A stretch of DNA of 64,000 bases from Antitrichia curtipendula (Eukaryota > Streptophyta > Bryopsida > Hypnales > Leucodontaceae): assembly GCA_951230915.1 (NCBI GenBank), contig OX579638.1, positions 2,498,696 through 2,562,695 of the forward strand. Direction: 5' to 3'. The notes under the pieces are model-generated. The model was not told the origin of the DNA. It saw nothing but the letters and a program-made list of their open reading frames with translations, and ran no database searches. A program made the position numbers and the translations under genes. Shown in pieces: positions 28,630-57,769 of the stretch; positions within the stretch are counted from its first letter, which is position 1, and the number at the start of each line of letters is the position of its first letter.

Positions 28630-28632
28630 TCA

Positions 28633-33190: not shown

Positions 33191-33211
33191 ATTGGAGCTG
33201 TCACGATGTCC

Positions 33212-34480: not shown

Positions 34481-34652
34481 ATTGACTGTTCAACTAACTT
34501 AGTGACTCTATCGGGCTGCAGGGCGGCGCTTTCTAGCTAGAGTTCCGACGTGACTCTGGATTGCTGGATCCGACTACACAGGTAGCGATATCTAAAACTA
34601 GCTCTTGTGCTAACTTGCAAAAACCTTGCTTACTCTATTCAAGACAAGAATC

Positions 34653-34664
34653 GCTCTGATACCA
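34653..34664 (-). promoter_or_regulatory. Primer binding site, initiator-Met tRNA type
   Basis: Read on the minus strand directly inside the 5' LTR, the sequence is TGGTATCAGAGC, the standard plant copia site complementary to the 3' end of methionine initiator tRNA. Confidence 0.95.
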
Positions 34665-34899
34665 TGTTGACATACAAACTCTGAAGACTGCAATTGTATC
34701 AGTGCAGCAAGGCTGCTTACTTTTTTGACAGTCCCGAGGTGGGATTATATACAAGTAACCCGGATGACAAAGGACAAGCGAAGTGGGACTAGCAGTAACA
34801 AACCCTACGTGTGGATTAAGTGTGTCATGGTAACGGTTTGGTGGTGGAGGTTGTGCTAATGTAACGAACTGATTAGGGTTTGAGCGTACAGTTCCAACA
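34665..34899 (-). repeat. 5' LTR of the copia element
   Basis: The 235-bp partner of 29529-29763, with about eight substitutions and no indels. It would contain the promoter of the element. It is followed on the plus strand by the second target copy TCTTT (34900-34904). Confidence 0.97.
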
Positions 34900-34904
34900 T
34901 CTTT

Positions 34905-35627: not shown

Positions 35628-35751
35628 TGTGAAGAAGATCTCACTCAAACTCTTCTCCAATGAACCAACATTGCGTTAGTTATGTACAAAATTAGGGCAA
35701 GGATTGCCAGTCCTTAAACACTGTACCTAGAACATCATACCACAATTGTAG

Positions 35752-36156
35752 TCACAATAGTACTTGTAGACTTAACATAACTTCTTCCACCGTGACCGCC
35801 CCGTCTCGCCCAAACTTCCCACTGGCCACATTCTCTTGATAGCTCTCCTCATCCATGCCTCTGAATAAATGTCGGTGCATGTCAGTCATCACAAAGCCCG
35901 GGTGAGCATTGTGCACCTGAATCCGATGTCCTTTTGGAAGGGAAGCTCGTGGGGAAGCTAACCTTTGAGCAAGCAAACGGCTGAAGGAATTGAGGAGGAT
36001 TTTGGAAAATCGGTAGGAATTGCTGGCATTGGACTTGGACTCCCCGTTGCCGGCTTTGCAAGTGTCCAAAAACTCTTGTGCCAATGTGTCTAGGAACTGT
36101 TCGTCGAATTTGGTGACGTTGGAAAGCTTCTTCTTCAACTCCTTGTTGTTCACATC
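35752..36156 (-). pseudogene. Short-chain dehydrogenase/reductase, single exon fragment
   Basis: The minus-strand exon begins after the acceptor ...TTTGCTGCAG (36157 onward) and reads through the SDR active site YRFSK within SNSYRFSKILLNSFSRLLA, followed by VHNAHPGFVMTDMHRHLF, the conserved PG-x-TD region after the catalytic helix. These are features of the NADPH-dependent SDR group that includes carbonyl and neomenthol/salutaridine reductase-like enzymes. The Rossmann glycine motif (TGxxxGIG) and the catalytic Ser exon were not found upstream to 38 kb, nor a final exon downstream. It may be an exon whose gene was separated by the flanking transposons, or a captured fragment. Confidence 0.75.
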
Positions 36157-38366
36157 CTGCAGCAAAACCAACAAAACAAAACTTCTGATTACAACGAGCG
36201 ATACATAAATCTAATAAATCTAACACGCTGCTCTCGTGGAGCCAGAACCCTAGCTTCATTTATATAAACTAATATAAAGTCATTGTAAATCAACTCAAAT
36301 TGTAGGAAATAAACTACTCTAAGCCATGTATGAATTCATTTACGACCTCAGCACCAAGACTCAAAGCAGGTGGGGATTATGCTATGACAAAGCAGCAATT
36401 CAGTTCAAAATCCGCCACACAATTTGATGTTATGTTGTTTACATCCCTTAAATCAATCTCTATAGACAGACAAAGATAGAATTCAAAGACAGAAGAGACG
36501 AAATGTCCATTTGTTTCTGAGATCCTTTAATCTTACTGAAGTCAGATCTTACCTCCAATTAAGCAGCCCAAACAGATTCCTAGCGTGAGCACTCTAAGCC
36601 TTGAAGAAGTGACGGAGCTCGCTCCACAGGGTCAATTGAAATTGCAATAAGCAGCATTAGCAAAGTCAACAATAAAATTCTACTGTAGACGCAGCTTTTA
36701 CACTTTTATCCACCATTCTAAATAACGAGCTTGATTAAAACAACCAAAACAACTCTTCGATCAATTCTCCGACTAACTTTCCGATTAACTCTCCAATTCT
36801 CCGATCAACTCTCCGATTAACTCTAACAAATTTGAGAAAAAAAGGATTGATGCAAAAAAGAAACTCCAAGCCTCGTACTAAACATCCGCACTTACTAAAG
36901 CAAAACGAATGCTACAGATTAACACCAAGTTCCAAGTCAAAACCCCAAGCACACGAGCCTCACAAGAAAACAGGAAAAATCAAAAGACTGTTGAATGTTT
37001 CACGACATTGAGCAAAAGCTCAGAAAGAGTTTACTTGCAAAAGTGCTAGAACACACTTAGATTGTACAAGAACTCGATATGATGAAGAGCTTCATTGAAC
37101 CTGCTTGAGCTTCAAATGCAAGCTAGAAGAACACATGTTTGTGTGAGCGAGAAGGAGGAGACACCTTGCTCTTGCGTGACAGAGTCTCGAGTTGCTGAGC
37201 GCGAGTTGATAGATAGTAACATTTAGGTCACAGGTACAAACATGATTGATGATTGGACGATCGATATTGCATTTGAGAGGATCGGACGGCTAAGATAAAA
37301 AGTGCACGGTAAGTGGCACTGCACAATATGGTGTTGTGCATGGCAAGTGGCATGTCTACGATATTACATAAGTGTTGAAGAAATAACTAGTTGCTTCAAA
37401 CTCTGAAGTTCAAGTGATACCTCCAAAGACAATTTTCACGTATTGTCCGAGTGATAGAACTTGAGGCAAAGCTCAAAGTACACATGCACTTTACATTTTA
37501 CACCAATGTGAGCAGTGTGTCTTGAATACAAAATGGTTTTGAATTTGTTGAAATCTGTATGCAGTACAAGGCGCTCCATGAAGTGGATTTAATACCTACA
37601 CACACCTTCAGCAGAGCACATTTGTGTTGAGGTGGAAACAAAAGCTTGAAAATAGAGAGCACTAGGGTTAAATCTCGTCAATTGAGATATAAGTGACTAT
37701 CATAAATTCTAGCCTTCTACAGGAGTGAGCATTACGGTGCCCTTCGTTTTGCACCTTTTAGTTCAACTATTCAAGTTTTAAGTGGTGACATGATAGAACA
37801 ACCTTGTTATGAATATAACATCCCTTGTCACTCCCATGGTATGTTGGTTCTCATTAAAAAAAAAAAGACTATTCTTTTGTTCACTAGTTCACAATGAGCA
37901 GATTGTAGAATCTATTGCCTCATCTGATGGCATGGTCCTAGAATCAGGGACCCGTGATAGTAAGATACAAGTTTTTGTTTTTTTCTTTTTTTATGAAGTG
38001 CCAAAAGTAGCGATATTAAATGTTATAGCGGTGCTCCGAATTTTAACATTCATCTACATATTGGATAGAAAATATCACTAGTACATGCCACACTCATCAT
38101 TCTGTTTTCATCCACAATTTGGTGATTTCATATATATATATGAAGTTTTTTTGGCAATTTTCTGCCTTTATAGTACCACTTTGTTCTAGAGGAATCGTGT
38201 TGGGCCCATTACTTTGGTGCAAATGGACTACAGATCACCAAAAAAACCACGTTGATAAGACATGGAGAAACTTGATAGATTTAAGAGTCTTGCTCAAACA
38301 AGGAGAGACTAGGGTTGTCTTCCCAAACACAATGTTACAATGTATAATATAACATCTAGGATGTCT
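36157..38366. other. Intergenic DNA between SDR exon and the large element
   Basis: No coding domain is visible. Short direct repeats of the type CTCCGATTAACT recur at about 36765-36830. The remainder to 38366 is AT-rich, with open frames at or below 95 codons. Confidence 0.5.
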
Positions 38367-38397
38367 TATAAAGGCCTTATTCATTAAAATGAGACAA
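38367..38397 (+). repeat. Left 31-bp terminal inverted repeat
   Basis: It reads inward from TATAAAGGCC and includes TTCATTAAAATGAGACAA. It matches 55804-55834 at all 31 positions when reversed. Similarity to the outer right copy at about 56000-56031 extends four bases further, through TTTGG. Confidence 0.9.
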
Positions 38398-38881
38398 TTT
38401 GGCACTTTTGAGACTTTGGAAATCGAGGTGTGAAGGTCCATTGTGGTAATATTTGTTGAACACAAAGGTAAATTACTTTGGGCATACAAAAAGCAGAAAA
38501 AACAAAAACCATGATCATCCAAATGCCTTCAAGCAATTCAAGAGGGAAACTCATTGATTGATGAAATGATGGGAAACTATTATCATCATTCTATACCAAA
38601 GACAATTAAGCGGTCAACACAAAGCACCCAAACACATACTCAGTAAGTTTAATATTTTCAAAATTTTCAATACACAGAAAAGATGCAACTTTCACTGACG
38701 ATATCAGCAGAATAGAATCAATGGTGTAAATGAGTAAAACCATGTGGGCACCGGGGAGGCTTACTGTACATGAAGCTCCCTAATTTTTGTAATTAATGTT
38801 TATCTGTACTTATTATTTACCACGCTTTTAATAGTAAAAGATGCTCAGAAGTCCATGGCTTCGAAAACTTTTCAGGCTACC

Positions 38882-40959
38882 CTAGACATCGTTATCGCCT
38901 GTACAATTACTCTTGGTTGCTTCCAACGCTTTAAGCTTTGCCAAGCCCTTCAAAATATCCTCCCGTCGAGAACAATAGTGGGGCCCACCTGCCCCGACCA
39001 TCCCACCAGGGAAGCCCACACTCTGCGAGCCGTCTTCTTTTCGCTTCCTATTTCGAATGCTTGGAGAACCCTCAGATGTAGAATGAGATTTGGTCCTCCT
39101 AAGAGGCAGCCTCGGAACCATTGTAGCGACATCATTTATGTATGGTACTCCCGATCCAATTGATTTTGAGTCGAGAGAGCGCCTTTGGTCTATGATAATC
39201 CTCTGACGAAAAAGGGAATCAGCTGAGGGCGATCGCCTAACCCCCACAGACAGTGAAGGACGAGGACGATTGCTCTCGAGCCGAGGGACAGAATTCGCAA
39301 TTTCCGCCCCAACTTCGACGCTCCTCGTGTACCCCACGCGAGCAGCCGGGGATGTCATCACATCCATGCACATATGTGAACGTTCAAGGGGTCTCGGATA
39401 GATATCCTCGCCTCGAGGGTGCCCGCTGCCCCCTCCGACGGTCAGGTCTAGCTTCTGACTGGTCCCAACCTCATTGCATGGAGCCGGCGAGAAACAGCAT
39501 CCTTGAGTCGAGGACAATCGCTTCAGAGGGAACGGAGAGCAGATGGGAGTCCTTTCAGGGCCGCGACTAGGGGGGCTGTCAACGGCGCCGTCCTCGACGT
39601 CTCCCTTCGAGAAATCAATGGCCGCAGACGCTGCGTCCTCTGCTGTGCGCATCATGAACGGGCCTGAAAACACAGAGGGCTTCATGCTCCCCCCACCAGA
39701 ATCGGATTCGGAAAGCAACTTCTGGGATTCGGAAAGGAGATTCTTCGTGAGCCCGCGCCATTTGGGCAAGGCTCCAACAACCGGAGCTTCCACCTGCATG
39801 AACACAAGAATAGAGATGTCCTCCGAGCATCAACACCTTGCCAGAAGCACGAAGATAAGCATCGCAAAACGAGATGGACAATGAGAGATACAGACAACAC
39901 AATTATGTGAATCTTAAATTGAATTTATTATTTACAAGTGAAATTCCTGTACAATATATACTCACTACAAAATTGTCTTCCGGTCCGGAGAGATCTACGT
40001 CTTACGCCCACCGGGCTCTATCACTAAATTAAACGCCGGAAGTTCAAACCGCGAACCCACATTTCGCGCGGACTCTCTCATTCCTTGGAGCATCCCACGG
40101 ACCTCCTCGGACAAAGAAGCGAGTGGGTCTCCGCCTATCCGATTCACAGACACATATTCCCGGAGGCCACCGGGTTCGCATTCGGATTCTAGACGCGAAA
40201 GCCACAGCAAGAGATCTCCCATGAGGAAGTTGTCCAGCCGTTGCGGGTGGCGCCAGGAGCGGAGGAATATGGCATTGCCCTTCTCATTGCAGACACTCTT
40301 CTCGGGAGAGTCATCGATGAGAAGGGTGTTGTCCGCGGTAAAAGACTTGTCTTCACCGGACATGGAGAAGACCTGCTCGGAGAGCACCTTAAGAAACACG
40401 GGCTTCGCCCCATCGTGAAGAAACCGCCCTCGTGTGGTTTCTATCTGCCGACAGTGCTCCTGTCCGAGGACTTCAAAAGGGGCCCTGATTCCCTTGAACA
40501 GGAATTCTGCCACCATCTCTGCAGTCGAAAGCTTCATGGAGGACCACACGACTACCTTGGCCGTGATCTGCGAGATATCGTGAAGGAATTCCCGCAGATT
40601 GGGCCTCCCAAAGACCGCTTTGGGACCGACAATGGTGGGATTCATGTGGCAAAGTACATTTTGCTCGATACTATACGGCTTAAATTTTTTAGCGTACGAT
40701 CTTGACTCGCACTGGCACAGGATTCCGTTTAGGTCGAACACAATATTCAGCCACTTTCCCCTCAGTTCGGGCACTACTGGCGAGACACTTCGCGGCACGA
40801 TCTCTCCGCGTTCCACCGATTCTACCTGATGAAAGCAAGACAACAAAGAAATGGAGTTACTTGTTTGAATGCAGAGTCAGGTGACCCAGACAACGGGACG
40901 GAGCACTGAAATCCACTAATCCATTGCTTGCTCCCCTTAGGAAGGGCTTTCACGGCCAT
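38882..40959 (-). CDS. Gene A: FCP1/HAD-like phosphatase-domain protein
   Basis: Exon 1 (40959-40861, 33 codons from MAVKALPKG) joins exon 2 (from 40825) through an in-phase GT-AG intron. Exon 2 holds an FCP1-homology HAD domain: FDLNGILC as motif I, VVWSSM as motif II, FLKVLSEQVF, then LLIDDSPEKS as motif IV, ending near 39995. FCP1-type enzymes remove phosphate from protein serine, classically the RNA polymerase II tail, with motif DxDx(T/V). Here the second aspartate is Asn (DLN), a substitution also known in plant relatives, so catalysis is doubtful. A Ser/Pro/Arg-rich frame (39793-38882) follows after an acceptor at 39794 and may be a third exon. The donor is unclear, and an AATAAA-type string near 39925 could instead end the gene. 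It shares an LSEEVR tail motif with gene B. Confidence 0.72.
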
Positions 40960-41297
40960 CGGGCGGTGCAAACCAACAGTAATGTTTGGCTGAGTAAGAA
41001 AGACAGTGACAACAGAGTACAATTAGATTGACGTGCCTTTCAAAATACACCATGTCCATTTTTATTTACAGGAAAAATAATATACATTATCGCATACAAC
41101 ACTGTCATTCGAGAGCGTAACTAATTGGAAGGCACTGCTACGCTACACTTCTCAAGACGGTGATCGTTGGCAAAAATATCTTTCGACGCCAAACTATACA
41201 GGAGGACCCTCCTGCCAAACAAAATACGTAAGGTATGAGTGACAAGCACTTTGGAAATGTGGGACCTGAACATGGATCAGGTACACCTTGTTCAGTT

Positions 41298-41318
41298 TTA
41301 CCCTCGACTCGAGGCTAA
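41298..41318. repeat. 21-bp palindrome, copy downstream of gene B
   Basis: Consensus arms TTACCYTCGA and TCGARGGTAA surround one central base. This copy has GGCTAA at the right arm. It lies about 50 bp past the stop codon of gene B. Confidence 0.9.
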
Positions 41319-41365
41319 TCGATTAGATGTAATTGATGTATGTCTTAAGTGTCAGCGTCAGTGGT

Positions 41366-44300
41366 TTAGACAGCAACATGACCGTCCGGACTCAAGAGGG
41401 AGTCATATGGGTCAGGGGATTGTACTTGTCCCGAATCGTCAGAGTTCTGTCCAGTCGCTGTCGCAACCGCCGGTGCAAGTGACGCGTTCTCCTTCGGCAC
41501 ATTGTCCAGTAGGATGTCCTCTTTGTCTCCGTAGTCCACAAGATCGAGCTCCGGCGATCGCTGAAGCGGTCCAGATCCCTCCCGCATGGACGGCGGACGG
41601 GGAAAAACGGCTAGTACGGCATCTCGAAGGTTCTCACTCGGCGTAGCAGCATCGCCGATCACGATGTCAGAGACTCCCGTCTGTGATTTACCCTCGACTC
41701 GAGGGTAATCACCAGCAACAACGGTGCCGGATGAGCAATGACCAAGAGGGGATCCTGTGGCGCCGGCGTCAGCCCTTACCGCCGTGGCTGCAGGCGACAG
41801 GACGGGGAGTTGGTCGGCCGGGGTGGAGGCCACGATGTCCTCGGCAACCGGTGGGTCCTTAGTTGGAGTACCCTCGTGTCGAAGGTCCGACATGCCCGTG
41901 ACCAAGTCCCGTACCTCCTCCGACAGGTCCGCTGCGGGGTCAGTTTGGGATGGCATTTGGCTTTGCGTGGACTGGGAACGCTGCTGGGTCGGAACAGACT
42001 GGGACTGTAACGCGGCGAGCGTATGTTGGCTGGCAAAAAAAGCTTCCATTTGCTTGGCCATCTGGTCCATCTGCGCCTGAGTCTTCTGTGTTTGTTCCTT
42101 CAACTCCTCGCTAATCTGGAGGGCCTGAGCTATCTGTTTGTCCTTCGCCGCCAGCTGATCCTTCATGGCCTTATTCCTTGCATCCTTCTTCGCCCTCCGC
42201 TCCATCTTGGCCTCGTGCCACCCGGTCTGGATTTTTCCGGGTATTGGAGTGGGGGGGACCTCCTCGACTTTCTCGACCGGGTCACCAGCGTTGTCGGTGT
42301 CGTCGAAGTCCAAGGAGCGCAGAAGCGAGTCCGTGTCGACGTCGCTCAAGTCCACAGTTGGACGCTCAACCTTGGACTTCAATTTTTCTCCCTTCCTCGC
42401 CGTCTTATTCCGACGTCGTTTCCCGCCTTCGGAGGATTTCCCCGCAGCCTTCCGCTTGTCCCTGCGACTGGCGCGTGCCCGCTCCCTCTGCTGTTGCTCA
42501 ACGAACTCAGAGTCTGTCTCCACGTCTTCATCCGCCATGTTGGGAATCTCCGCAGGACCGCGAGGAACAGCCTGCCATCGCTGAATGACAACTGTGTTGG
42601 TGCCGTACTCGTCGATCCCATCCATTCCCACACCCGATTCCCTGCGAGCAGAATCAGGTAACTGCTCACCCTCCAACCTGGTCGCCAGATCAATACCAGA
42701 TCTGGTCCCGCCCCCATTTGTGGGCCTGGGCGCGGTATCCGGCAGGACGTCTTTCTCCTGCGCACCCCCCTCATCACGCTCGCGTAACGCTAAGTCGTCA
42801 CCGGTATTCCTCTCGTCGGATCTCGGAGATATGGCCTCCCGTCCCGAGTTCCTTTCATGCTGAACGGGAGATAACTCATCTTCATGACTTCTGTGATGTG
42901 GGTCATCGGGAGCGTCATCGTGATCGGGTGGAGGCAGGTCGTCGTCACTGCCACCGCTTGACGAGTCGTCCCTGTCAGACCCATCAGACACTCTGTCCTC
43001 CGAATGTTGTGATCCATCGGGACTGCTTGGAGGAGAAACCAATTCCCCTGCCGTTGGGGGGGAGATGGAAACCAGCACAGGTGCCTCCACGTACAGTGGT
43101 CTCAAGTATTGCGCTGAGTATGGCGAATTCGAATGCAGGAAGTCATTCATATCCAAGTACAGACTTGATTTTGTATAGGCCCTATGCCTCGCCGTCAAAG
43201 ACTTCTCGACCAGGCCGTAGTAGTACGACCGATACAACTGCACGAGTCATAGACAAACAAGTGTTAGTCGACAAGACATACCGAAGGATAGCCTCGACTC
43301 GAGGTTAAAATGTAACGTCGCCAGTCAACGTCCCTCACTACATACAAGTCACCAATTCAATACATGAACAAGTTAGCCTCGACTCGAGGGTAAATGGTAA
43401 TCTCTGCGGAAATCATTAAACTCGATGAACGCGTTTCAGGAACTGACGAAGGTTATCTTCATGTCGCGGTAGACATACCTTTGCCGCCATGGCGCTCTTT
43501 GCCCCTGCGAATATGCCGAGGACGTTCTCGTTGCGAACAGCGAAGCATTGTAGGATCTGAAGGTAAAACTCCATCCGGAGTTCGCTTGCGTAGATCCTCC
43601 ACTTGGCCTCGTTGTTGTATTTCGCCTCGCTATAGTACAGAATATCGGCAGGGCGATATTCTGTCTCCACCCTGTCGCGGACAGCATCCGCATGATCGTC
43701 TCCTCTTTTAAAGAGGAATAGCATACGAACGTCTGGGGCCACTCTCAGGCGATTAGACACGTTGTCTAATCGTTCCGCCCTCGATGGCAGATATACTGAC
43801 TTCACGATGTCGTAGTCTAGCATGTCCACCGTCGCGAAGTTCAGCGCGGCTTCGAAGTCGTCGTCGCCGCCTAGAATCCAGAGCCACACGCTGGCCTCCT
43901 TCGCATCTGGCTCTAATTTTGAAGCCATATACTCAAGAAACGGCAGAAGACTCGACGTGTTCTCGTGTACAGCTGGCCTTTCTATATCACGGACGTCCAA
44001 AATGGTGAGTCTGAGGGGACGGTTTACGTATGTGTACATCTGCGTTTCCACTAGCACTCGCGTGCGCGCATCCAGGCCGCGGAACTCGTACCCTCCAGAT
44101 TGCTCACCAAGTTGGTACTTCGACTTCATGAACCTCTGGAACATAGTGGCCTCGTCCGAGAACTTGTCGCCAAGGTCCTTTGCCCTCTTTAGCTTGGCGT
44201 CGTTCGATAGGTGTTTACTGAAGAATGACGGCTTCGGATACGAGAGCAGAAAATCCCATGTCGCGGATGAGAATAGGTGCCTCTTCTTCCAGGACCTCCA

Positions 44301-46390
44301 GACCTCTAGGATGGTGTCATTGTTCGCGTCGCGCAGTTTGAGATCGGGTTTCACTGACATCATCTCTTCATGGATGATTTTTTTCTTCTTCCTGCGCTCC
44401 ACCCAGTCCTGTGCCGTCTGATTATCCGGCACGAGATACTTCGTCTTCCCCACCGATACTTTGGGGTGACTGTGTCGGCGATCCTCGGTCAAGTTCAGCA
44501 AATGTCTGGCGAAGACCTCAAGGTCGTGGTTCGTGAAGTGGCCAATATGCTTGAAGAATTCCCTCTTCAACGCAAACGACTTGGGACTGAAATCGTCCAT
44601 GTCCCGGAAGAGCTGGCGAGTAACTGGTTCGACAAGCTCGCCCTCCGGGTACTTGGTGAGAAAATCCTTCCAGAGCTTCCAAATGTCATCCCACAGCGTG
44701 ATGATCTTAATCTCGCTTTTCAGGTCCAAGTGGGCCTTGATATTCTTTCCCTCTTTCTCCGGGTTGATATTCTGGAACCGCTTCACAACTGCATCCGTGA
44801 AACTCTGCAACACAATAGACACATTTACATTAGAACACTACGCTTACCTTCGTCTCGAAGCTAATCTGGCATGTAACGGTAATGACCATGCAGGATATCG
44901 AATGACCGCTGCCCAGGCTACCCTAAACAAAATCAGTGGTATTACCCTCGACACGAGGGTAACTCTATAGAGAGGTCGATTACCTTCCACTTGGCCTCGC
45001 TGAGGACAGATGCATTCTTCTTCTTCACGGGATCCTCGGCCACGAGCGTTGGTCGAAGGCAGTTGATCCAGACGTTCCGGGAGCTGATGACCTGGCTACC
45101 CCACGTCGGTTGAGCGTGATCCAGGTGATTCGTCGAGTTGTAGAATTGGGAGATGTTTACCAACTTCGACGCATCCAGGGTCCAGACAATGTAGGCTTCC
45201 CACATCCTGAGCTCTTTACGGCGTTGCTCGCTGCACTTTTCTATCTGTAGGTCCTTAGAAGCCTGCACACTGTGTTGACCGTTGATGATCATGAATTTTC
45301 CTTTTTTGATATCCTCCCACCTCTGCGGTGGCTCTTTGAGCAACCTGTTTTGGGTGTCCACCGGCGTAATACAAAGACGCTGTCGCTCTCTGATGTGACC
45401 CAGAGCGATCAAGTTGCGCTTCACGGACTCTGTAATCTTGTCCTCCATTCCCCGGATGACATAATCGTCTCTTGCTTTCATGCACTGGTTAATGTGGATG
45501 AGTTTGGGATCTTCTCCCAGTATGTAGCAGGCCCGATGCTCCGCCCAAAAGTTGCGCTGAATGAGCCCGAACTTGTCAGTGACATCCATTGGGGCCTCGG
45601 AGTCTGATGTCTGCGCAACGTTCGTCAGAGCTGATCCTGAACTTCCGGTAGCCGCAGCAGTCTTCGATTTCCGACGCTTGTTCGTCCCCTCAGCTGCTGC
45701 TGCGCCCCCCGACTGAGTCTCGGCGCGCTTCCGAGAGTCTGATCGAACCTGCCCCTGTCCGCTTGCGCCGCTACCGGACCCTGGCGGCGCTGACAGGCTT
45801 CTTCCTGCCCCTGCAAGATCTTTCTGTTTCTTACGCTGCATTCCGATTTGCGGGCAGGGCTTTACGTTCTTCACTGCGTGTCTGTCCAGCGCAGTCCAGA
45901 TATGTAGGATTCTTCGGGCCATGGTCGTGGGCGGGCCTTCTATCCATGGCAGATATTTTGCCGTCTTGAATGTGTGGATCAGGTGGTCAACCTTTGCATC
46001 CTTCAAGAATCTTTCGATCTCCTGTATGTCAAACCTGGCTCCTATGCCGACTCCGTCCACGACTATGGAGTGCATGTGCTCTCCGTCTTCCTTTACTTCC
46101 TGCAGCACGATGACTATGTAACGTTGGCGGACGCACTCAATACGCGACACCTTCTCCTGCTGGTGCCAGACGAAGAAGTTCCTGTGGGTCATCGTTTGGT
46201 ACCGGAGGTGGACGAAATCCTGAAACCGGTTTAAGCCAAACGACCACTTAGAGACATTCCCCCGGAATTGCCAGAGTTTCCCACTCGACTCCTCGTCGTC
46301 ATGAAGGAACGGCTCGCCCTCGACGGGGTTGTCGAACGGCTCCAGGAAGTGTTGTGTTACTGAGTAGTCGTAGTTGTCTTCTCCTTCCAT
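41366..46390 (-). CDS. Gene B: 1534-aa protein with ParB-like NGQH motif
   Basis: Three exons join in phase 0: 46390-44984 (469 codons), 44804-43479 (442) and 43237-41366 (623 plus stop). All four splice sites are GT-AG. Exon 1 contains FMIINGQHSVQASKDL at about residue 366, resembling the (D/N)GQHR core of ParB/Srx-like and DGQHR domains, plus a basic Lys/Arg-rich low-complexity stretch. Exon 2 is mixed alpha/beta without a motif I recognise. Exon 3 is acidic and Ser/Asp-rich, with a nuclear-localisation-like block (KRKAAGKSSEGGKRRRNK), a coiled coil (about 70 residues, RRAKKDARNKAMKDQLAAK onward) and a Gln/Ser-rich region. This layout suggests a nuclear DNA- or chromatin-binding protein. 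Both introns carry two palindromes each. The 5' end is unclear; an upstream non-coding exon is possible. Function is inferred only. Confidence 0.75.
41688..41708. repeat. Perfect 21-bp palindrome inside gene B exon 3
   Basis: A copy with both arms fully complementary (TTACCCTCGA and TCGAGGGTAA). It is translated in gene B as DYPRVEGK without breaking the frame. A second, degenerate copy (GTACCCTCG...CGAAGGTCC) lies at 41868-41888 in the same exon. Confidence 0.9.
43288..43393. repeat. Two 21-bp palindromes in gene B intron 2
   Basis: Copies at 43288-43308 (ATAGCCTCGA, TCGAGGTTAA) and 43373-43393 (TTAGCCTCGA, TCGAGGGTAA). The 241-bp intron holds little else. Confidence 0.9.
44844..44962. repeat. 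Two 21-bp palindromes in gene B intron 1
   Basis: Copies at 44844-44864 (TTACCTTCGT, TCGAAGCTAA) and 44942-44962 (TTACCCTCGA, ACGAGGGTAA). Both fall inside the 179-bp intron between the donor at 44983 and the acceptor at 44805. Confidence 0.9.
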
Positions 46391-46430
46391 ATTCGGGTAC
46401 TAGTTCTTGCAGGACCGACGTTGTGTTAGA

Positions 46431-47101
46431 TTACCCTCGACTCGAGGCTACTGTATACGAATATATTCGTGACATCCGACCATGTGCTCTTTCCGGATTT
46501 CACATTCAATAGTCGTTGTTTGGCTTCGACTCGTGGGTAAGATCATTATTATTGAGTACCAGGATATTGTGATCATGCATGGTCACGTCATGCTGCCGAG
46601 CGTTGGTGGACAGTTTTCTATTTAGTTAGTGCTGGTGGCTGCGTTGATATTCATGGCAATTTAATTGCCTCGGTCAGAGGAGATGCAATGGATATAGTGA
46701 CATGGACCTTCCGGGATTCTCTAGTTGCTAGTTGGACATGGTTGCTACAATTTACCTTCGACTCGAGGCTATTCGAGTTGTTGCTGTTATATTATGGGGA
46801 TATTGTTCCTCCAGGTGCGGATCCTGCAGTGCTTGGCATTACTACCCTCGACTCGAAGCTAATCTGGTTTGGCTGACCACTGGCTTCTGTTTGGCTTTCT
46901 GCAGATTCCAGCCACTAGCTTTGTCTGGTATTGCTGGCCGTGGCCGTAATTAGCTTCGACTCAAGGGTAACTGGAGAAGTGACTTGTACTTCTTAATTTC
47001 GACTCGTAGCTAATCTGGAGGTTCTCGTGGTATGGGGTCTTCTCCTGTCTCAGGTACGGGTTCTACTCTATTTGTCTTTATTACCTTCGACACGAAGGTA
47101 A
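46431..47101. repeat. Seven dispersed 21-bp palindromes upstream of gene B
   Basis: Copies start at 46431, 46520, 46752, 46842, 46951, 46993 and 47081, with variable spacing (42-232 bp). They lie in the 5' flank of gene B, where its promoter and leader should be. The copy at 47081 has both arms changed to CCTTCG and CGAAGG, a compensatory change that keeps the palindrome. Confidence 0.9.
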
Positions 47102-47188
47102 ACTAGTTCGGCTGGACATTGGCTTGTGGTAGGCATTCAGGATATGTATGGTGTTGACGGTGTCCATTTTAGCAACTGACCGACATAA

Positions 47189-47272
47189 TTACCTTCGACT
47201 CGAGGCTAATTACCTTCGGCTCGAGGCTAATTACCTTCGGGTCGAGGGTAATTAGCCTCGAGACGAAGGTTT
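47189..47272. repeat. Exact tandem array of four 21-bp palindromes
   Basis: Units at 47189-47209, 47210-47230, 47231-47251 and 47252-47272 abut with no spacer, which fixes the unit length at 21 bp. The period is two helical turns, so bound proteins would face the same side. The last unit is degenerate at its outer end (GAAGGTTTA). Confidence 0.95.
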
Positions 47273-48985
47273 AGGGTGGATAGAATATGTAGGCATTTTA
47301 ATTAGGGACTTCTAGTGCATAAACCCTAAGGCTTAAACCCTGAACCTTTGAGTATGTTCTGTAGAATTGATTACCTAGAGATTCAATTGCTCGATGTCCC
47401 TGGGAAAGCTTTGAATGAAACTTGAAGGTAGTGAATGAGACCTACAATCACAGAAATACATCGTTATTGCTTTCTGAAAGAAGACACTTTCATGAATCAA
47501 TGAGGAGATTGACTGAAGAGAATAAAACTATTGTTCAATTACTAAAAACGTGCTCAAGATTCTAATTTTTGAAACCCTGTTCTCAGGATAGAAATTCTAA
47601 AACAAAACCAGAATGAAGAAATCCACAACAGAGTTCAAGACATAAAACGAAACCACCAATAGAAAACATATATGAAGAAAAACAGGGTTGTGAATTAGGA
47701 AATGAAGCGCCCTGAATTGGTAACTGAGGTGTATGGAAGACATACCTGCGCAGGTACAACTTTGCGAAATTCCCGAACTGAAGAAATCAGCAAAATATAA
47801 AAATGCAGCACGACCACCGCCACTTCTCAATTGCCAACCGGAAAACGAATTCTTGCACCGCGAACTCGAGCGGCCACCTGAATCGGAAACAACTCACAGC
47901 GCCAATCTCCCGCGCACCAAATTCTCATGCACCAAGCTCACACCTCGGAGCTCAAACCGAATACTCTCATACGCTACCGCTGTCACGCAGAAAGAGAACC
48001 GCACCACCAAAAAGCAGCAGCTCGCAAAATCAAGCTGAAACCTCAAATTTCGCACACCCTACTCTCACGCATCAAGGTCACACTTGTATGCACAAACGCC
48101 GATGCTCCCACCACTGACCTCACACCGCGACGCAGAAACAGCCAACTTCACGGGTTTGCCGCACAAACAAAAAAAACCCACACCGCCGCGGCAAGGACGC
48201 AGCAGCCCTAAACCCAACTTGGAAATGCACAGGTACAACGCGGAAGAACGCGAGGCGCAGAAGCACGGAGAGGAAAAAAAATGCCGAGAACGGCAACTCG
48301 GAAATGGCAGGACGCGCGCGGGGAGGGAGATGACCTCCCGAACCCTACCCGAGCCGCCAAACCTGGTTTAGGGCAGGTGCGACGGTTCCGACCCTGCCTT
48401 GGACCCCCCCGAGCCTCAGATTCTGCCTCAGCCAATACCGGACCTGCTGCTTCGGTCCCGACCCTGCGTCAAAAAGAACCCAAGCTTGGAAACTTGCCTT
48501 ATGCCCCCCCAAACCTACTGCTTTGGTCCCAAACCTCAAGGACATCCCGAAGCCTATGTTAAATTGTAAATTTTATGAAAAAAAAAGGCGAAAAAAAATA
48601 ATTGTTTCCTTTCACTTTCATTCTAAAACTCTCGATGTCTTCGCGGTAAAAATTTGTGAAATTTCTTATACATATTTCCATACGATTGTAGATAATACAA
48701 GTTCCTATACTTTGATAATATATTGAAGCAAAAACTTATAAAGTTTCATGTTATTTTGCACCTAAAGAGCGAATTTAGGTGTAACTTGAACGAATAAAAG
48801 TCTATATCATTCCATTTACTGCATAGAACTGAATTAAAAAAACTAAAGACAAAATTTCACGTCAACATTTAATTTATTATGAAAGCAAACATAATACAAT
48901 AAATTGTGGAAGTTGGAGATATCTTCAACTATGTGAATGTAAATAAAAACACAATTTTTAGGTCATTCCAATCCAGCACAATATA
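47273..48985. other. Central non-coding region of the large element, first part
   Basis: It contains AAACCCTAA-type strings near 47325-47345 and a G+C-rich block at about 47740-48560. In that block several overlapping frames of 60-104 codons are open on both strands, with no domain. The rest is AT-rich. No gene is called. Confidence 0.45.
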
Positions 48986-49697
48986 AATACAGAATAAGGT
49001 CAAACCTGTATTTTAACGGTAACAAACATCAAATGTCATAGAATTCCATTTTGAAAGCGACTTGAATCAAATCGCACAAGTTGGAAATACCCTCAAGTAT
49101 TTAAATGCCCAAAAATATGAAATTGATGTGTAATTGCAATCCAACCGCACCTCAATTCAAAAAAATACAGAATAAGGTCAAACCTGTATTTTAACGGTAA
49201 CAAACATCAAATGTCATAGAATTCCATTTTGAAAGCGACTTGAATCAAATCGCACAAGTTGGAAATACCCTCAAGTATTTGAATGCCCAAAAATATGAAA
49301 TTGATGTGTAATTGCAATCCAACCGCACCTCAATTCAAAAAAATACAGAATAAGGTCAAACCTGTATTTTAACGGTAACAAACATCAAATGTCATAGAAT
49401 TCCATTTTGAAAGCGACTTGAATCAAATCGCACAAGTTGGAAATACCCTCAAGTATTTGAATGCCCAAAAATATGAAGTTGATGTGTAATTGCAATCCAA
49501 CCGCACCTCAATTCAAAAAAATACAGAATAAGGTCAAACCTGTATTTTAATGGTAACAAACATCAAATGTCATAGAATTCCATTTTGAAAGCGACTTGAA
49601 TCAAATCGCACAAGTTGGAAATACCCTCAAGTATTTGAATGCCCAAAAATATGAAGTTGATGTGTAATTGCAATCCAACTGCACCTCAATACAGAAT
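48986..49697 (+). repeat. Tandem satellite, four copies of a 178-bp unit
   Basis: The string AATACAGAATAAGGTCAAAC begins at 48986, 49164, 49342 and 49520, an exact period of 178 bp. By eye, the copies differ at only a few positions (for example TTTAAATG in the first and TTTGAATG in the others). The array is inside the large element, between the divergent genes B and C. Confidence 0.97.
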
Positions 49698-51590
49698 TAC
49701 TTGGAATGTTAAAGGTAACCTGTCCGAGATTTGAATGGCCGCCAATACTAAGTGTTACAGAAATAAATGTGACAATAATTAGTGACATTCAAATTCATTT
49801 GGAGTATCTTTGCATTAATTTCGTAATGTCATGCGTTGATTTGTATGGCGAGATTTTGTTTTTTAAAACCCAAATCTTAAATTTGCTCTAAATGTAAGGA
49901 AGTTAAATTTATGGGAATAAAAAAAAGTTGATATTGAAGTGGGAATTGTTTTACAAATAACTGAAGATAGATTTTAACATTTTTTTTTTTGGTAGCACTA
50001 TCTTTCAAATAGGAATGACATTGAATATGAAAATGAGAGAGCATGTTTTTTTCATGATTTTAACAAATTTATTGGAACCATTCTTTTAGTTGGAGATTGA
50101 AATGATAATTTGGATTTGTGAAAAAGGTTCACATGTTCATTTACACGTGGTCCATGGTTTTGGAAGAGTTAGTTTAGAGCTACTTAGCACTTTTAAACAT
50201 AGTTCTACTGTAGTCAATAAAATTAATACCTTCCTATCTTGTGGACATTTTTTTGAGAAGTACCCGGTCAGAGTATCGTGTTTTATTAAAATATTAGTCG
50301 CCTATTTTTTTTGAGGGAGACACTAAAACCTATAATCGAACTCATGAACCCTACATTCTAAAACATGAACTCTAAACATCCACTGAAATTGAGAGTCCCT
50401 TAGTTGAGACATGAAGAATATGAATTATCCTAAAGTGAAAAAAATAGCAAACATGCGTAAAAAAAATTTTAAATTCGCATGAACTTCTGAAAATCTTTTG
50501 GACACAATCGAAATAAATAGATTTAAACTTGTAAGGTAGGACCCAGGTTCCAAAGTGGTACACCCTTTAAAATGGAGCCCTACCTTTTAAGTGTGCATTG
50601 TCTGTACATGTTTCTTTTTCATAGCCCTCATAAATGTTCAGATAGTGTACATTTTACAGGGGCGACTTTGGTGCCCTATGCTCGTTCAACTTCAAAATTC
50701 CACATCTAATTCCGAAAAGCTCAAAAAAATGTGAAACGACTTGGGTTATATGCCAAGTCCACTTCTCTTTTAGGTAAAATTTACTGAAAATTATTTCAAA
50801 AAGTTATATGTTCACCAAATTCAATTCCAGCCCTTAGGTGGGTGGTTTATGGACCTGCTATCTTAGTCATATAGAGAATGACAACGCTCTCACAAAAAGC
50901 GGCTACAGAATGTGGATCCCAGGTTCCATCTTGCCGAGTGCGCATAATTTTTGGAAAAGGCACTCCCGAAATAGTGGTGGGAGAAGTCACCCCGGGGACG
51001 CGGCTCCTTTTCTTTTTATGCAACGGAATATATGGGAAAGGCGTGCATGATTTGGATAAGCACAGACTGCGCGCGAATTTGGAGTCCGTTTGAATTCCAG
51101 AATGTGGCGCGCTGTTTTTCCCGCGTTTTCTTTCCGTCTCCTTCTCTGTAGCTTGCACGCTTAGCTCGGATCGCTCACAGCGATGGAGGCGTTGCAGTCA
51201 TTCTCTTACTTGCTGTCATTCCTTCTCCGCCTGATCAGATGAGTGCAGAACGCGTAGATTTGGAGACTTACGTCCGTGTTTGCTATTTCTGGCACTTGCA
51301 AGGGATTTGTGCACTGCTGAGCAGACTTCGTAGTGAAGAATGGCCTGTAAGAAAATCCCATGTCTCTTGTAAGGTTGTTTAGTCTACGTTTTGCGATGTC
51401 GTTGATGCTTTTTGCGTTTTTCAACACTTCATGGAAATGAAATGGTAGATGCACGTCGTACTCAATTCTTCTACTTTGTGTTAATCTGAGATTGCGCCTT
51501 ACATTGTATGCTTGCGGCGTTGTCAATATCATTCACGTACTATACCGACTTTCATGCCGCGAATCCCGGAACGAGGTTGCGAATTCCATA
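49698..51590. other. Central non-coding region, second part; likely 5' region of gene C
   Basis: No coding domain is visible; frames of 60-108 codons overlap on both strands. The stretch 50900-51550 is less AT-rich and probably holds the promoter and first non-coding exon of gene C, whose coding exon starts after an acceptor at 52412. Confidence 0.4.
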
Positions 51591-52349
51591 TTACCTTCGA
51601 GTCGAAGGTAATGTAGGTGTAGCGTTGAACTATGACCGTTTACCCTCGAGTCGATAGTATGATGTGGAAGTAGACTGTAGTCTTCGGAATCCATAGTGTG
51701 CTGGATTTACCTTCGAGACAAAGGTAATAAATGGATGTTGCGGTTATTCTATATATACTCTGGTCACAATTATATATTAAGTATGACACTGGAACTCAAG
51801 AATCCTGATATTAGGTTTAGGTTCGTCTGCTAATTTTACTTCGACTCGAGGGTAATTTGATGATTGTTATTTTATTTTATCTTTAGACGGTGCCGGTTCG
51901 GAGAGGTATATTCGTGTATATGTCTTGGTTTAGTAATTTGTATGGTTTCGTATAATGACATGGTATTTTACCTTCGGGTCGAGGCTAAGGGTTCTGTGAT
52001 ACTGAGTGTGAATGACCTCTACTGTGATGCTGGTATGTGGTTCTGTAGTATGTTCATTTGGTGGTTTAGTGGTGATCCATAGTAATGGTGAATTTATCTT
52101 CGACACGAAGGTAAGTCGGTGTTGGCTTCTTACTATAGTATTGATTAAGCCTTACGATTTTAGATCAAGTTTGTGAGTCATGATTTGTGGGCTAGATCTG
52201 GCTGTACTTATTATTGCAGTGGTTGTGGTGGATGTGACGATTGATTAGTTATATGCGATTACATTATGGCTGTATAGGGTCAATACGACAAGTATATTTT
52301 CTTCGCTGTCCGTTCCTGTCGTTATCAGGTTCCTTCGTGTCGAAGGTAA
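51591..52349. repeat. Seven dispersed 21-bp palindromes upstream of gene C
   Basis: Copies start at 51591, 51640, 51707, 51835, 51968, 52094 and 52329. The first (TTACCTTCGA, TCGAAGGTAA) is fully complementary. The series ends 65 bp before the gene C start codon and probably lies in its leader intron. Spacings are 49 to 235 bp. Confidence 0.9.
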
Positions 52350-52413
52350 ATACCTTGAAATCGTCATTATACCTAGGCTTCCAATGACTTGTGCTTATTT
52401 TTGAATTTGTAGG

Positions 52414-55287
52414 ATGGACATCCATGGTCCCGACGATTTTGCTACACCTATTCCAATTTTGGCTCCGGATGTTGTTGACTGTGATGGAATTCCTCGTTCC
52501 TCTTGGAACACAAAATGTGTTACTTTGCGTAACGAAGCTGGAGATGACGTCGCCAAGGGAATCTGTCGTAGCGTTGATGCCGATCTTGTCATCGACAGTG
52601 ATGGGAAGCCCCTTGGTGATGATCGTGTTGCCGTTCAAATTGCGGAATCTTTATGTGAGATGGAGGTTCCATCAGGTTGGATGTGGTCAATGCGTTCTTG
52701 GCATATTGCGCGAGTATTTTTTAACGGTGTTAGCCTCTACGATCATCAACAGACAGATTTGTACAATAGTGCTGTGAATGCTTCCAACCGTCGTGCGCGT
52801 GTGGGGGTGCGTTCTTATGAGAGTTCTCGAGAGAGGAGGGAGCTTGATCTCCCTCCTAAAAAGGAAACCCTTCTCAGCACCCAATCGATTATTGGAGTGT
52901 CCACTTTATCTTGTTGCTATAAGAATTGCTTGCAGCATTTCCCTCGTAGCGAAATTCAGACGATTTGTTCTGAATTGCATGTAACTGGTGGAGTGTATGT
53001 CCGCAAGCGCTGCCTTCTTGAAGCGCATAGGCAAAAGCACAAAGACCAGGCAGGGAAGGAATGGATAACATTGAAGAGTATTGATGTTTGCCTTCCTGCC
53101 TGGTGGACTATCCATGGGATATCAAAAGCGACCTTCTACAGGTTCAAGCGCATGGCCAATGATGGGAAGGTAGCAGAGTCGCACGGGAATTTGGGGTCTA
53201 AGAAGCCACGCACACAGACTGTGCAAGCCACCGCCACACTTCGGGCTTTGGTTGTAGGGCAAGCAGACAAAATGCCGCACAAAACAAGAACATTAGCTTC
53301 AGGAGAGAAAGTACCTGCAATGGTTTTATCCTCTGCGTTTCGTTGGAGTGACCAACTACCAAAAATCAATGAAGCCAATGCCAAGTTCAATTTGCCGCCG
53401 ATTTCTTCCAGTGGGTTGAGTGGCATTCGGCGTGCTTCTTTTCCTGAATATTCTGCAAAGGCTCGTGGGGACACTTTTGCAAGGTGTGGTCTATGCGATA
53501 CTTACAAGCAGTTGAAGAATGCTTGCACTCCATTGTCTACAGCACAGGGCAAGTGGGACAGAATTCTGAACACCCATCTTTGTGGACAAGAGGCCCATAG
53601 AGTATTGTACTATTCAAATCGATATGTGTCGGAGGAGTTCCCTGAAAAAATGTTGTGCATCATCCACGATAAAATGGATCACTCGAAGACTGCGTCTCCA
53701 CACTTCTCTCACAAGACCAAGGCAACAGATTCATACATGAAATTGCCAGTTGTTGTCACCGGCATGATTGCTCATGGTCATGGCGACATTCGATATGCAC
53801 ACTATGGACTGGAGATTTTTCCTACAGACTCAAACCATACTGTTGGGTCTATTGCAAGGTTGTTGCGTGATCTTGAAGGAGTTCCGAAGAATTCATCTCG
53901 CATTCTGTTTTCTACGGAGGACAACCAATCCCCTTTAACCCAAGCGGTACTGGAAGGTTCAAATATATGTTTGGACTCCCTTCTTCCTCCTCCACAGGAA
54001 CCAATCGCTCATTGTCCTTTACCGCCTATATTGACTTTACAGCTAGACAATGCGTCCGGGGACAACAAGAATCGATGGGTTTTTGTTTTTTGTTCTTTAC
54101 TTGTGTTCAAAGGCATTTTTCGTGAGATATACATCAACTTCCTCATTGTTGGGCATACTCATGAAGATATAGACGCTCTCTTTGGTCGATGGAGCACGAT
54201 GTTGAAGATGAAAGACTACGAAATACTTCCTAGGCTTATGAAATCCTTCATGGATTGTGAAAGTCATCTCGTCATTCCTCACTTCATCGAGGAAGTTCCT
54301 GATTTTAAGCTATTTGTGCAGGGATACTTGGGTACAGGTGGAGACTTCTTGGAAGGTCATTCTACGTCCCAGCAGTTCAAATTTTACATGGATTCAAGTG
54401 GATGGCCTTTGATGGAGTACAAGAATCTGTGTACGGACAAGGACTGGTTGCCAGAGCATGGTAGAGGAATTCAGTTGTGGTCTGAGACAGAAGACGGTCG
54501 TCCCCAAGTGCCAAGCGGAAGCCCAACACCTTTGGCTCCACAACAAATGCGGGCAGTAGGTGAAATCAAGAAGGGTTTGGATGGTTTTATTTCACACTGG
54601 AGCAGAATGGCGAATATCGAAGAGTCTGGAGAGTTCAGGCTTCTAAATGGTCCCATAAAGGAGTATTGGAAGGGTGTGAGGGCGGCTTTAGATGAACCTC
54701 TAGTGGTTCGTGAGACGTTGAAAGATGGATTTTGGCCGGCTTCTAGGATCATTGAAGAACCGGAGGACTGAATGCGAGAAGATGGTACAGTGCGTGAAGA
54801 ATTTGCTGAAGATAGACCTTTTGTTGGGCGTAGGCGCGACCGTCCTAGACCTTCATTTCGTATTGATAAGGATTTGTTTGCGGGATATTTTGTGGTTGTG
54901 CGACCCGCTGATGATGACCCAAAGCCCTTCTGGCTTGCTAGAGCACTTACGAATCCGAATCCGGATCCGGGACATATGCATTTGATCCAAATTCAGTACT
55001 GGACACCTACATCAGGTCGTTTCATTGACTTGGATACGTATGCTGGGTGGGACACAAAAGCAGGGAATGTGTGGCGTATGGATCGTATAATCCCTCCCCG
55101 TTGGTCAAACACGGACTATATCATGACGGCATTCAAGCCACGTGGAAAGAAAGTGGTCGACGATATTCCTCAAGTGATTTCGAGAGTTACTATTCCGAAG
55201 GCACAAATGAATATCATCAAATCATCAGTGGCGAACTTTATGCCGAATTGCAATAACAATGACGTCTTGGATGAAGATGAAGAGTAG
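52414..55287 (+). pseudogene. Gene C: DUF7869-type protein, DDE-like candidate transposase, split by TGA
   Basis: The ATG follows an acceptor (...TTTGTAGG). The frame runs 785 codons to a TGA at 54769-54771 and, in the same frame, 171 more codons to 55287. A zinc-ligand-like cluster (FARCGLCDTYKQLKNAC ... LCGQEAH) precedes acidic motifs IIHDKMDHSK (Asp419/422), LQLDNASGDNKN (Asp545) and VGHTHEDIDALFGRW (Glu584/Asp585/Asp587). These are hallmark motifs of the DUF7869 family found in many eukaryotic repeats. Their order fits an RNase H-like DDE enzyme, which I infer. GISKATFYRFKRM (about residue 230) resembles a helix-turn-helix. The part after TGA (AGYFVVVRPADDDPKPFWLARA) looks like a BAH/SH3-type chromatin reader. 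The TGA may be a nonsense mutation, readthrough, or a true end followed by a remnant. Confidence 0.78.
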
Positions 55288-55734
55288 TTTGTAGCTGTAT
55301 TAGAAGAGTATTATTTTTAGATCTTTGATTCTATACGCTTTTGCATATAGATATTTTGAGTTGTTTGCAGTTGTATGTTGTATTGTTTTTATCATAATGT
55401 AGCAATGATGTAACATACTTGATTTCTATTAATAGTATTTGTTCACCTTCTCTTTGCATTTTCATGTAGAGCATTTACAAACGTTTCCCTACTTTTATCT
55501 TGTAAAAGGTTTGTGATGGAAAGAGTTGTATTACAATCATTTAGAGTAAGGATTTGGCACAAGCAAGTCTCAATTTAATGAAATGCTTCACTTCATAACT
55601 TTTTGGTCTCTTTTATTTCTTTATCTATTACGAAATAAAAACAAATAGAATGTTTATTGAGGGATGTAGCTTCTTTTTTTAGAACTATGTAAATGTATTA
55701 AATCACAATTTATTTTATGTGAGTATCAATTTAT
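55288..55734. other. 3' flank of gene C within the large element
   Basis: AT-rich and presumably includes the gene C 3' UTR. A subterminal-like string (TCTCAATTTAATGAA) occurs near 55568. No gene. Confidence 0.5.
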
Positions 55735-56031
55735 TGAAGAGTCTCATTTTAATGAACACTAATTGTACTCTAAATATAGAATGCATTAAAATGAGACCCG
55801 AACTTGTCTCATTTTAATGAATAAGGCCTTTATAGATCCACCCATCCATCTAATAGAGTCAACTTTACAATTGACTTTCAATAAATTATCGGCTTTGTTT
55901 ACAATCTTGACATATTACAGTTGCATTTTATTGAATTGTCTCAATTTAATGAACACTTATTTCATTCTAAATTTAGGATTATAATTAAAGTCAGATTCCA
56001 AATTGTTCCAATTAATGAATATGGCCTTATT
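55735..56031. repeat. Direct duplication of the right terminus of the large element
   Basis: About 105 bp ending at 55834 and about 105 bp ending at 56031 align. Both contain ACTCTTCAATAAA/CAATTCAATAAA-like, GTGTTCATTAAAATGAGAC-like, (A/G)CTAAATTTAG-like and AAGGCC(T/A)TATTCATTAA strings on the complement. The outer copy is more degenerate. This may be a relic of an earlier related insertion or a terminal duplication. Confidence 0.65.
55804..55834 (-). repeat. Right 31-bp terminal inverted repeat
   Basis: Exact reverse complement of the left repeat. Its inner part, TCTCATTTTAATGAA, recurs at 55742 (same orientation) and near 55783 (inverted), so the right end has subterminal copies that the left lacks. 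Confidence 0.9.
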
Positions 56032-57769
56032 AAACAAAAATTTGAAGTATACTTGACATCTGTTTAATACGACATGCAACATCAAACCTCTCGTATGACA
56101 CTTAGTATGGTTTGTATGTCAAACAAGACAATCTTGGACTTAATAGATTCTATAGGTAAAAATATTTTTGGAAGTCTTACATGCTTCCAAGAAAATTTTC
56201 AAAGTCTACAAGAAGTCTTCAAATAGCAGGAGAAACCTCCTAATAACAGATTTGTCTTCTTTAGAATCATAGAAGGGCCCTATACTAGGACCATGCCCAA
56301 TTTGATATTGACCCAAGATGTTCATTGCATCTTAATAGTATTGAAATTCTCCTCATCAAGTAATTGCAAAGAGTTTGATTGAACAAATAAATAGGTTAAT
56401 CTTTAAACGACATTTGAGATCCTAGGGGGGCTATCCAAATTTGGATTTGAGAACCTTTTTCAAGTGACCATCATGCAACTTGTTCAAATGACTAATCAAT
56501 TATAAGTTTCTGCCTTCTTCAAGGTCATGGGCAACTTCAAAGCAACTATTCAAAAAAATTATCAAACTTTCTAATGCAAAAACTACAAGTTCAAATTGTG
56601 ATTCAAAATCCAAGACTTAGATTTATAGTTGCATCTTGTGAAGGCAAAGGGAATGATACCAAGGAATTTGACATGTAATTGAGTACTAGAGGAGTTTTCT
56701 TGAAGACCCGCTTGAAGATTCTTTGAAAATCAAGCGCTTCAGGTTCGGTTTGTCTTTCAGGGGTTACTACAATGTAATCACCTTTGCGAGTAATGCATAC
56801 TTGTATAATGTGCTTGAATATACACGTTTTTCTTTTGCCTATCTTACTCATTCAAAAAACATGCTTTTGTTACAACTAAAGGGTCTTGAATGCATTTGAC
56901 CATTAAATGTAGAAAATTTATTTTGGGATATAAAATTGCATTTGAATGTAGAAGAAAGCTTGAAATGTTTTGAAATGTTTTTTGGACTCATAAAATGTAG
57001 ATATTCATACCATTAAATGTGTTTTGGGGGGTCTTGAGGGCCATTTTAGGCCTATTTCCATTCCTGTGAACCAACAGACACTTGTCAGAACATTAAAAAA
57101 ATTTACAAAAATTTACAAATTTAAAATTTAAAATTTAAAAGTTAAAAAAAATTTTAAAAAACTTTTAAAATTAAAATAATACATATCCAAAAATTAATTT
57201 AAAAAATTAAATTTTTATTAATATCCAACATAACAATCGCTTCGCCACATCAACATGTGGCTGCAATGGAGTTCCTATAGTCTAGGAATTCCAGGGAACT
57301 CACAACCCTTTATAGTAGTGAAATCTCATGTAATGTATTTATAATTTGTAAATTTTTTGGCAGTGGGAGGCATTATTTATACAATATTATGTTCTTAGAG
57401 ATAGTGGATATGGTGCAATTTTTCCAATACATTGGCTTCAATAGGGTGCTAATTATGGAAAGAAACTCCAAATTCTATGCCAATTTTTTATAAACATTCA
57501 CATGCAAGTCAAGGATATCATTGCTATAACAATTTTGTACCAATCGTTTTAGGGTTGCCAACATGTGAGCCTAGGATCGTAAGTCCATAAATCTAGAATC
57601 TTGAATTTATAAATCTATATGTTATAAGCACCTTCAATGGTTGTAAGGTACCTACTTACAACTAGAATCAAGGCTTGTAGGCTCGTATTACTAGGCTCAC
57701 TCGCTAGCGACATTGAAAGGATTATGCATGCATTCATGTGGTGATCATGTATGCAAATAGCGACCATTG
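56032..57769. other. AT-rich gene-free region
   Basis: Only frames below 85 codons. An extreme A/T stretch with AAATTTAAAATTTAAAA text occurs near 57100-57230. No element ends recognised. Confidence 0.5.

Follow-up and report, generated by a model that had tools for sequence, protein, structure and literature searches.

A family of giant terminal-inverted-repeat DNA transposons in the moss Antitrichia curtipendula with a putatively ParB-like gene and its own palindromes

The window analysed here is a stretch of 64,000 nucleotides from the moss Antitrichia curtipendula (GenBank assembly GCA_951230915.1, contig OX579638.1; C6:2498696-2562695 in the searched assembly). It harbors an element at 38367–55834 that is bounded by terminal inverted repeats (TIRs) and encloses the genes A, B and C. 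B (minus strand) and C (plus strand) are transcribed divergently, away from a core that measures about 6 kb. This arrangement had been recognized in a first-pass annotation made from the letters of the window, which listed three genes; all three are present, but a fourth frame, here termed X, had been missed. The features of the element are as follows (positions in the window).

38367..38370, no strand: left target-site duplication TATA, identical to 55831–55834
38371..38397, plus: left terminal inverted repeat AAGGCCTTATTCATTAAAATGAGACAA (inverted match and genome pattern count)
38885..39829, minus: frame X, probably a 3' exon with a putative acceptor CAG before GTGGAA (open reading frame; matched in other elements; dN/dS 0.27–0.70)
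39998..40822, minus: gene A, NIF/FCP1-like HAD domain with DLNG replacing DxD (Pfam PF03031, E 5.5e-12)
41298..41318, no strand: palindrome 3' of B
41369..43237, minus: B exon 3 with one palindrome at 41688–41708 (acceptor AG in five of six elements, those with exon 3 matched)
43238..43478, minus: B intron 2 with palindromes at 43288–43308 and 43373–43393
43479..44804, minus: B exon 2, C-terminal half with amino-methyltransferase fold
44805..44983, minus: B intron 1 with palindromes at 44844–44864 and 44942–44962
44984..46390, minus: B exon 1 with ParB-like box-II motif IINGQHSVQAS (motif alignment; weak phrog_723 match)
46431..47270, no strand: palindrome cluster 5' of B
48985..49690, plus: 178-bp tandem repeat in the central core
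51591..52349, no strand: palindrome cluster 5' of C
52414..54771, plus: gene C, DUF7869 transposase-like, ending at a premature TGA (Pfam and RNase H-like matches)
54772..55284, plus: C-terminal remainder of C beyond the stop, same frame (matched beside C in five of five other elements)
55804..55830, minus: right terminal inverted repeat (inverted match and copies in the same genome)
55831..55834, no strand: right target-site duplication TATA (flank comparison among copies)

Ends, target-site duplications and copies

An exact inverted match of 31 nt connects 38367–38397 with 55804–55834 (97% identity when extended to 34 nt). The first-pass annotation had assigned all 31 bp to the TIR, with an outer TA on both sides. 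Comparison with other copies shows that the outer four nucleotides TATA are the target-site duplication and that the TIR proper comprises 27 bp (AAGGCC..., AAGGCCTTATTCATTAAAATGAGACAA) at 38371–38397 and 55804–55830. A TA target duplication is ruled out, as the four nucleotides preceding AAGGCC differ among copies and agree across each long element; the TA is part of the 4-bp duplication.

The complete assembly (400 Mb, 303 contigs) was searched for further copies. A 29-mer of the terminus is found at 33 places, and the four nucleotides preceding AAGGCC vary by copy. The TIR core AAGGCCWTATTCATTAAAWTGAGACA (26-nt pattern, up to 2 mismatches) occurs at 543 places, with none for the reversed control. 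Long plus/minus pairs with a spacing of 17–36 kb were picked by eye among 100 listed of the 543 termini; wider pairs of 60 and 104 kb were left out of the comparison. Five further long elements (E1–E5) are thereby added to the window element (E0). The 4-bp flanks match in all six pairs (TATA, ATAC, TTAG, CAAA, TTTC and TTTC). In each of the five (17–36 kb), C with its tail, the first two exons of B, A and X are all present with their relative order unchanged; exon 3 of B has a match in four, E3 being the exception. Identity of C to the window copy (best piece) is 95% in E1 and E2, 93% in E4, 78% in E3 and 64% in E5. The corresponding values for B exon 2 are 93% (E1), 91% (E2), 84% (E4), 50% (E3) and 45% (E5).

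Copies with both ends inside 3 kb are present at 24 distinct places (two duplicates dropped), 22 of which have a length of 254–256 bp (L006-L038 family). An exact 4-bp duplication flanks 19 of the 24, the others being L006, L008, L016, L019 and L028. Termini apart from the genes, named beforehand as a point against a transposon, are literally seen in these short copies; with their exact duplications, however, they look like ordinary non-autonomous derivatives. The remaining terminus loci consist of a single end only. TIRs and target-site duplications, by which class II elements are recognized, are found in several independent copies (6 of 6 long and 19 of 24 short pairs), and the element belongs, as one of its copies, to a family of giant TIR (class II) DNA transposons. 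The first-pass annotation had proposed both the transposon and the search for further copies with the same ends, and the five long elements bear it out.

Two other readings of the locus are weighed against these copies. The genes might be ordinary host genes caught between two short repeat insertions, and short copies of the terminus are indeed common in the genome. Against this, all six long pairs, which lie at different places and have matching duplications, hold the same genes, so that this extremely improbable reading is ruled out by the six long copies. An equally slight chance is given to a virus-like or self-synthesizing (Maverick-type) element, which the length of 17–36 kb and the several genes would suit. 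Among seven open frames searched with Pfam, NIF and DUF7869 are the sole families to pass the cut-off, and the 4-bp duplications together with short non-autonomous copies suit a cut-and-paste transposon.

Directly outside the element a diverged second terminus of the right type is found at 55919–56033 (76% over 106 bp), as if the element had inserted beside or into an older family member. Near the end of the window, at 63869–63941, a relic of a left-type terminus (76% over about 50 bp) is followed by the palindrome-like sequence TTATCCTCAACTAGAGGATAA.

Genes of the element

Gene C matches Pfam DUF7869 (E 9.6e-42), the family named at first, and fold-level comparison yields RNase H-like matches; Foldseek alone gives no placement of C. 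An RNase H-like transposase core is probable. C can be retained as the likely catalytic protein, with A and B as accessory genes kept together with it. In the same genome C has at least 59 match rows (57 of 2089 candidates scored), some of which are pieces of one gene. Thirteen rows cover the query nearly fully, without internal stop and with an open frame of more than 900 amino acids. Of seven C relatives that were read, six have 939–986 and one 827 amino acids, and none is interrupted at the stop position of the window copy. Because of its premature stop in C the window copy is probably not autonomous, contrary to the earlier designation as autonomous-type; other copies in the same genome retain a C frame uninterrupted by stops.

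Named plant relatives of C are found in Ceratodon and Physcomitrium. Neither C nor B exon 2 found a relative in scans of viral contigs, and a scan of genome contigs with C revealed one. Moss-type transposon genes (L001, L070-L072) are also present on contigs binned as Synechococcales cyanobacterium AVDCRST_MAG81. These are probably contamination of the cyanobacterial bin.

The ParB-like motif of B, FMIINGQHSVQAS, contains the residues FMIINGQHS..AS, which are invariant among five aligned sequences. Exon 1 matches phrog_723 (ParB-like) weakly (E 0.019, one of five members), whereas Pfam detects no ParB family in the five members tested. In hhalign the ParB alignment of exon 1 covers the box-II motif only (E 0.057). 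Apart from the weak phrog_723 match, sequence profiles give no support for ParB or for a methyltransferase in B; the fold comparison of exon 2 alone succeeded. It identifies an amino-methyltransferase fold (N6_N4, beta class), and its best matches include CcrM and RsrI. The initial assignment of B as ParB-like is thus kept at the level of the motif, where B may be called putatively ParB-like, and lacked the methyltransferase fold. The catalytic DPPY-type motif IV is altered: PPY is present in none of 42 aligned sequences, and at the position that we read as motif IV there is D-x-R, with Arg in 41 of 42. Motif I reads FxGxK, with Lys in 40 of 40 ungapped sequences.

Gene A is FCP1/HAD-like as annotated at first (Pfam NIF PF03031, E 5.5e-12); comparison with PDB sequences gave no match. 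The catalytic motif of FCP1/NIF phosphatases is DxDx(T/V). It is replaced by DLNG, without a second Asp, in the translations of all six elements. An acceptor (TCAG before GTA) is present at A in 6 of 6 elements, and the frame of A in E2 is broken past the DLNG motif. In the aligned relatives the catalytic motifs of both domains, methyltransferase and HAD, are altered; for this reason B and A probably serve as binding modules rather than standard enzymes. This suggests two conserved pseudo-enzymes.

Frame X has no Pfam match and is matched in the five other elements at 34–84% identity. The tails of B and A have the motif LSEEVR in common (blastp E 0.003–0.005, within 38885–46390), and VEAPV is found both in X and in exon 3 of B; these shared motifs hint at 3' exons that are duplicated or alternative. 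VEAPV is present in B exon 3 of E0, E1, E2 and E4 and not of E5; X of E3 and E5 is devoid of it. There is weak support for a single B transcript that could end in either A or X as its 3' exon, the two having a VE start in common.

Ratios of nonsynonymous to synonymous substitution (dN/dS) were obtained from five pairs among the closer copies E0, E1, E2 and E4, to which they are limited by saturation of the synonymous sites of A and B in E3 and E5. They amount to 0.07–0.25 for B exons 1–2, 0.17–0.35 for C, 0.20–0.41 for A, 0.29–0.52 for B exon 3 and 0.44–0.70 for X. Accordingly, A and B exons 1–2 are under purifying selection among these copies. Synonymous divergence between the window copy and E1, E2 and E4 is 0.12–0.13 for C, 0.24–0.30 for A and 0.44–0.64 for B exons 1–2, i.e. 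about four to five times greater in B exons 1–2 than in C. The parts of the element seem to differ in age, which suggests that modules were exchanged between copies.

The palindrome family

The palindromes have a length of 21 bp. With up to 3 mismatches, 22 sites are located inside the window element, while the rest of the window and 200 dinucleotide-shuffled versions of the element contain none; this bears out the palindrome family proposed at the outset. The same rule yields 21, 21, 1, 14 and 12 sites in E1–E5; the low number in E3 results from its different arms. A core-type rule detects 91 sites in the six elements (17, 17, 18, 11, 12 and 16) and three sites in 45.9 kb of the window outside the element, including the relic at 63921.

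The 91 sites are distributed unevenly. Up to 1.2 kb 5' of B there are 29 sites and up to 1.2 kb 5' of C there are 21. Eight are located in B intron 1, nine in B intron 2, five in B exon 3, five between B and A, two between A and X, and 12 elsewhere. Four of these 12 correspond to units of the 178-bp tandem repeat rather than to members of the palindrome family; the other eight lie directly 5' of a displaced C 5' end in E2. With these eight included, the B introns and the regions 5' of B and C account for 75 of the 91 sites. None is found in B exons 1–2 or in C. Five further C copies have palindromes within 1 kb upstream. Among the metagenome-bin relatives the palindromes are located 5' of C in L001, on both sides of exon 2 in L070 and L071, and between exons 1 and 2 in L072.

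The core TCGANTCGA is constant while the arms change by subfamily with the symmetry kept; the TIR hardly changes. The arm consensus is TTACCY in E0, E1, E2 and E4, TATCG in E3, TTATCC in E5 and L072, TTTAGC in L001 and TTCAGC in L070 and L071. Genome-wide, palindromes of the window type occur at 111 positions of either strand, with none for the control. Of the 32 perfect ones, 27 have a C match no more than 20 kb away, compared with about 0.2 expected; one of the five far from C matches is inside the verified element E4.

Rfam at gathering thresholds gives no match within the 64-kb window. To the left of the element a series of minus-strand open frames extends from 28237 to 36259, perhaps another mobile element.

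Role of B and comparison with known systems

The left termini of the window element and E3 are identical over 25 nt and their C proteins are 78% identical, whereas B is 42–50% identical and the palindrome arms differ. Copies with more than 80% identity in the B exons have one common arm type. L072 and E5 are an exception, as they share an arm type though their B is about 38% identical; an older site may have been retained. Judged from this correlation, which comprises few independent points, B is likely to be the protein that reads the palindromes.

Taken as a whole, a Sola-like giant cut-and-paste transposon with C as transposase and B binding its own palindromes as regulator or mark is the explanation that we regard as probable. 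C would be a DDE/D transposase acting on the 27-bp ends with 4-bp staggered insertions; the duplications are observed, and the catalysis is deduced from the fold and conserved acids. B, with its ParB-like part and amino-methyltransferase fold, would recognize the 21-bp palindromes, probably as a dimer. KorB is a bacterial global repressor with operators. By analogy, and given that most sites lie on the 5' side of B and C or in the B introns, the most likely role of B is to regulate or mark the element that encodes it. A more specific version is put forward tentatively, at somewhat less than an even chance. In this ParB/parS- or KorB-like self-system a pseudo-methyltransferase B and about 10–20 operators per element co-diversify, providing a private subfamily code next to nearly shared transposase ends.

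Two alternatives concern B and the palindromes. The palindromes could be bound by C, or by a host factor as an enhancer or insulator, with B doing something else, which we consider rather unlikely. The left TIR, the expected site of C, is identical in the window element and E3 while the palindromes differ, and a host factor gives no account of arm changes among subfamilies within one genome. Slightly less credit still is given to B as an active N6-adenine or N4-cytosine methyltransferase that is recruited by the palindromes to mark the DNA of the element. The beta-class fold and its resemblance to CcrM and RsrI would agree with this. The site of CcrM is GANTC, and TCGASTCGA includes the similar GASTC; several palindromes, however, are devoid of GANTC. 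An Ectocarpus protein with the same domain pair is predicted to make N4-methylcytosine or N6-methyladenine (PMC12477816). The D-x-R and FxGxK motifs of B, on the other hand, speak against an active enzyme.

In common with the KorB/ParB family, one ParB-like protein is accompanied by many near-identical palindromes near promoters of a mobile element. The L001 arms TTTAGC...GCTAAA presumably equal KorB half-sites. Unlike KorB, the moss system has a eukaryotic host, a methyltransferase fold and a site that is longer and has TCGANTCGA as its core, and the ParB homology of B is putative.

Fusions of ParB and methyltransferase are known from phages and are included in a survey of the ParB fold (PMC12704722). 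In Javan447, Javan318 and NatCom_11697, as in B, a ParB-like part starts a protein, here annotated as DNA methylase or methyltransferase. Neither half of B gives a significant hhalign match to them, and NatCom_11697 retains DPPY and DPFSGSGS, both of which are absent from B. Fungal DNA transposons carrying TET/JBP genes likewise captured an accessory gene of the DNA-modification type, but the enzyme family and transposon lineages are different (PMC12730594).

In limited open-licence literature, no mention of DUF7869 and no description of such palindromes or of such an element in moss was found; for ParB and a Sola transposon in an alga, the Ectocarpus paper alone was found. The moss family resembles the Sola superfamily in its 4-bp target duplication, its TIRs and its presence in moss. 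AT-rich 4-bp duplications are given for Sola2 (PMC3627910) and Sola1 is listed in Physcomitrella (PMC9033089). The duplications of the moss elements, by contrast, are not confined to AWWT, and a kinship of the transposases is putative.

The closest counterpart is Sola1-1_Ec32 of Ectocarpus, and in view of it the first-pass statement that no superfamily with this gene set is described was too strong. As reported in PMC12477816, it is a 21.5-kb Sola1 element with a 1104-amino-acid ParB-like and N4/N6 methyltransferase protein opposite the transposase; similar proteins are cited from green and red algae and are proposed to bind and modify their own transposon. Both systems are giant DNA transposons having an opposite-strand gene with ParB-like and methyltransferase parts. 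They differ in the moss host and in the methyltransferase motif, altered in 42 of 42 aligned sequences, which suggests conserved pseudo-enzymes where the published work predicts an active methyltransferase. The FCP1-like gene, X and the palindrome family have no mention for Sola1-1_Ec32 in the accessible text of that paper, which likewise names no target; the palindromes provide concrete candidate sites for its "bind and mark" idea. With at least five arm types in natural protein–DNA pairs, self-binding is directly testable. The moss family, with its accessory genes in all six long copies, extends the giant transposons with ParB-methyltransferase-like genes to a moss.
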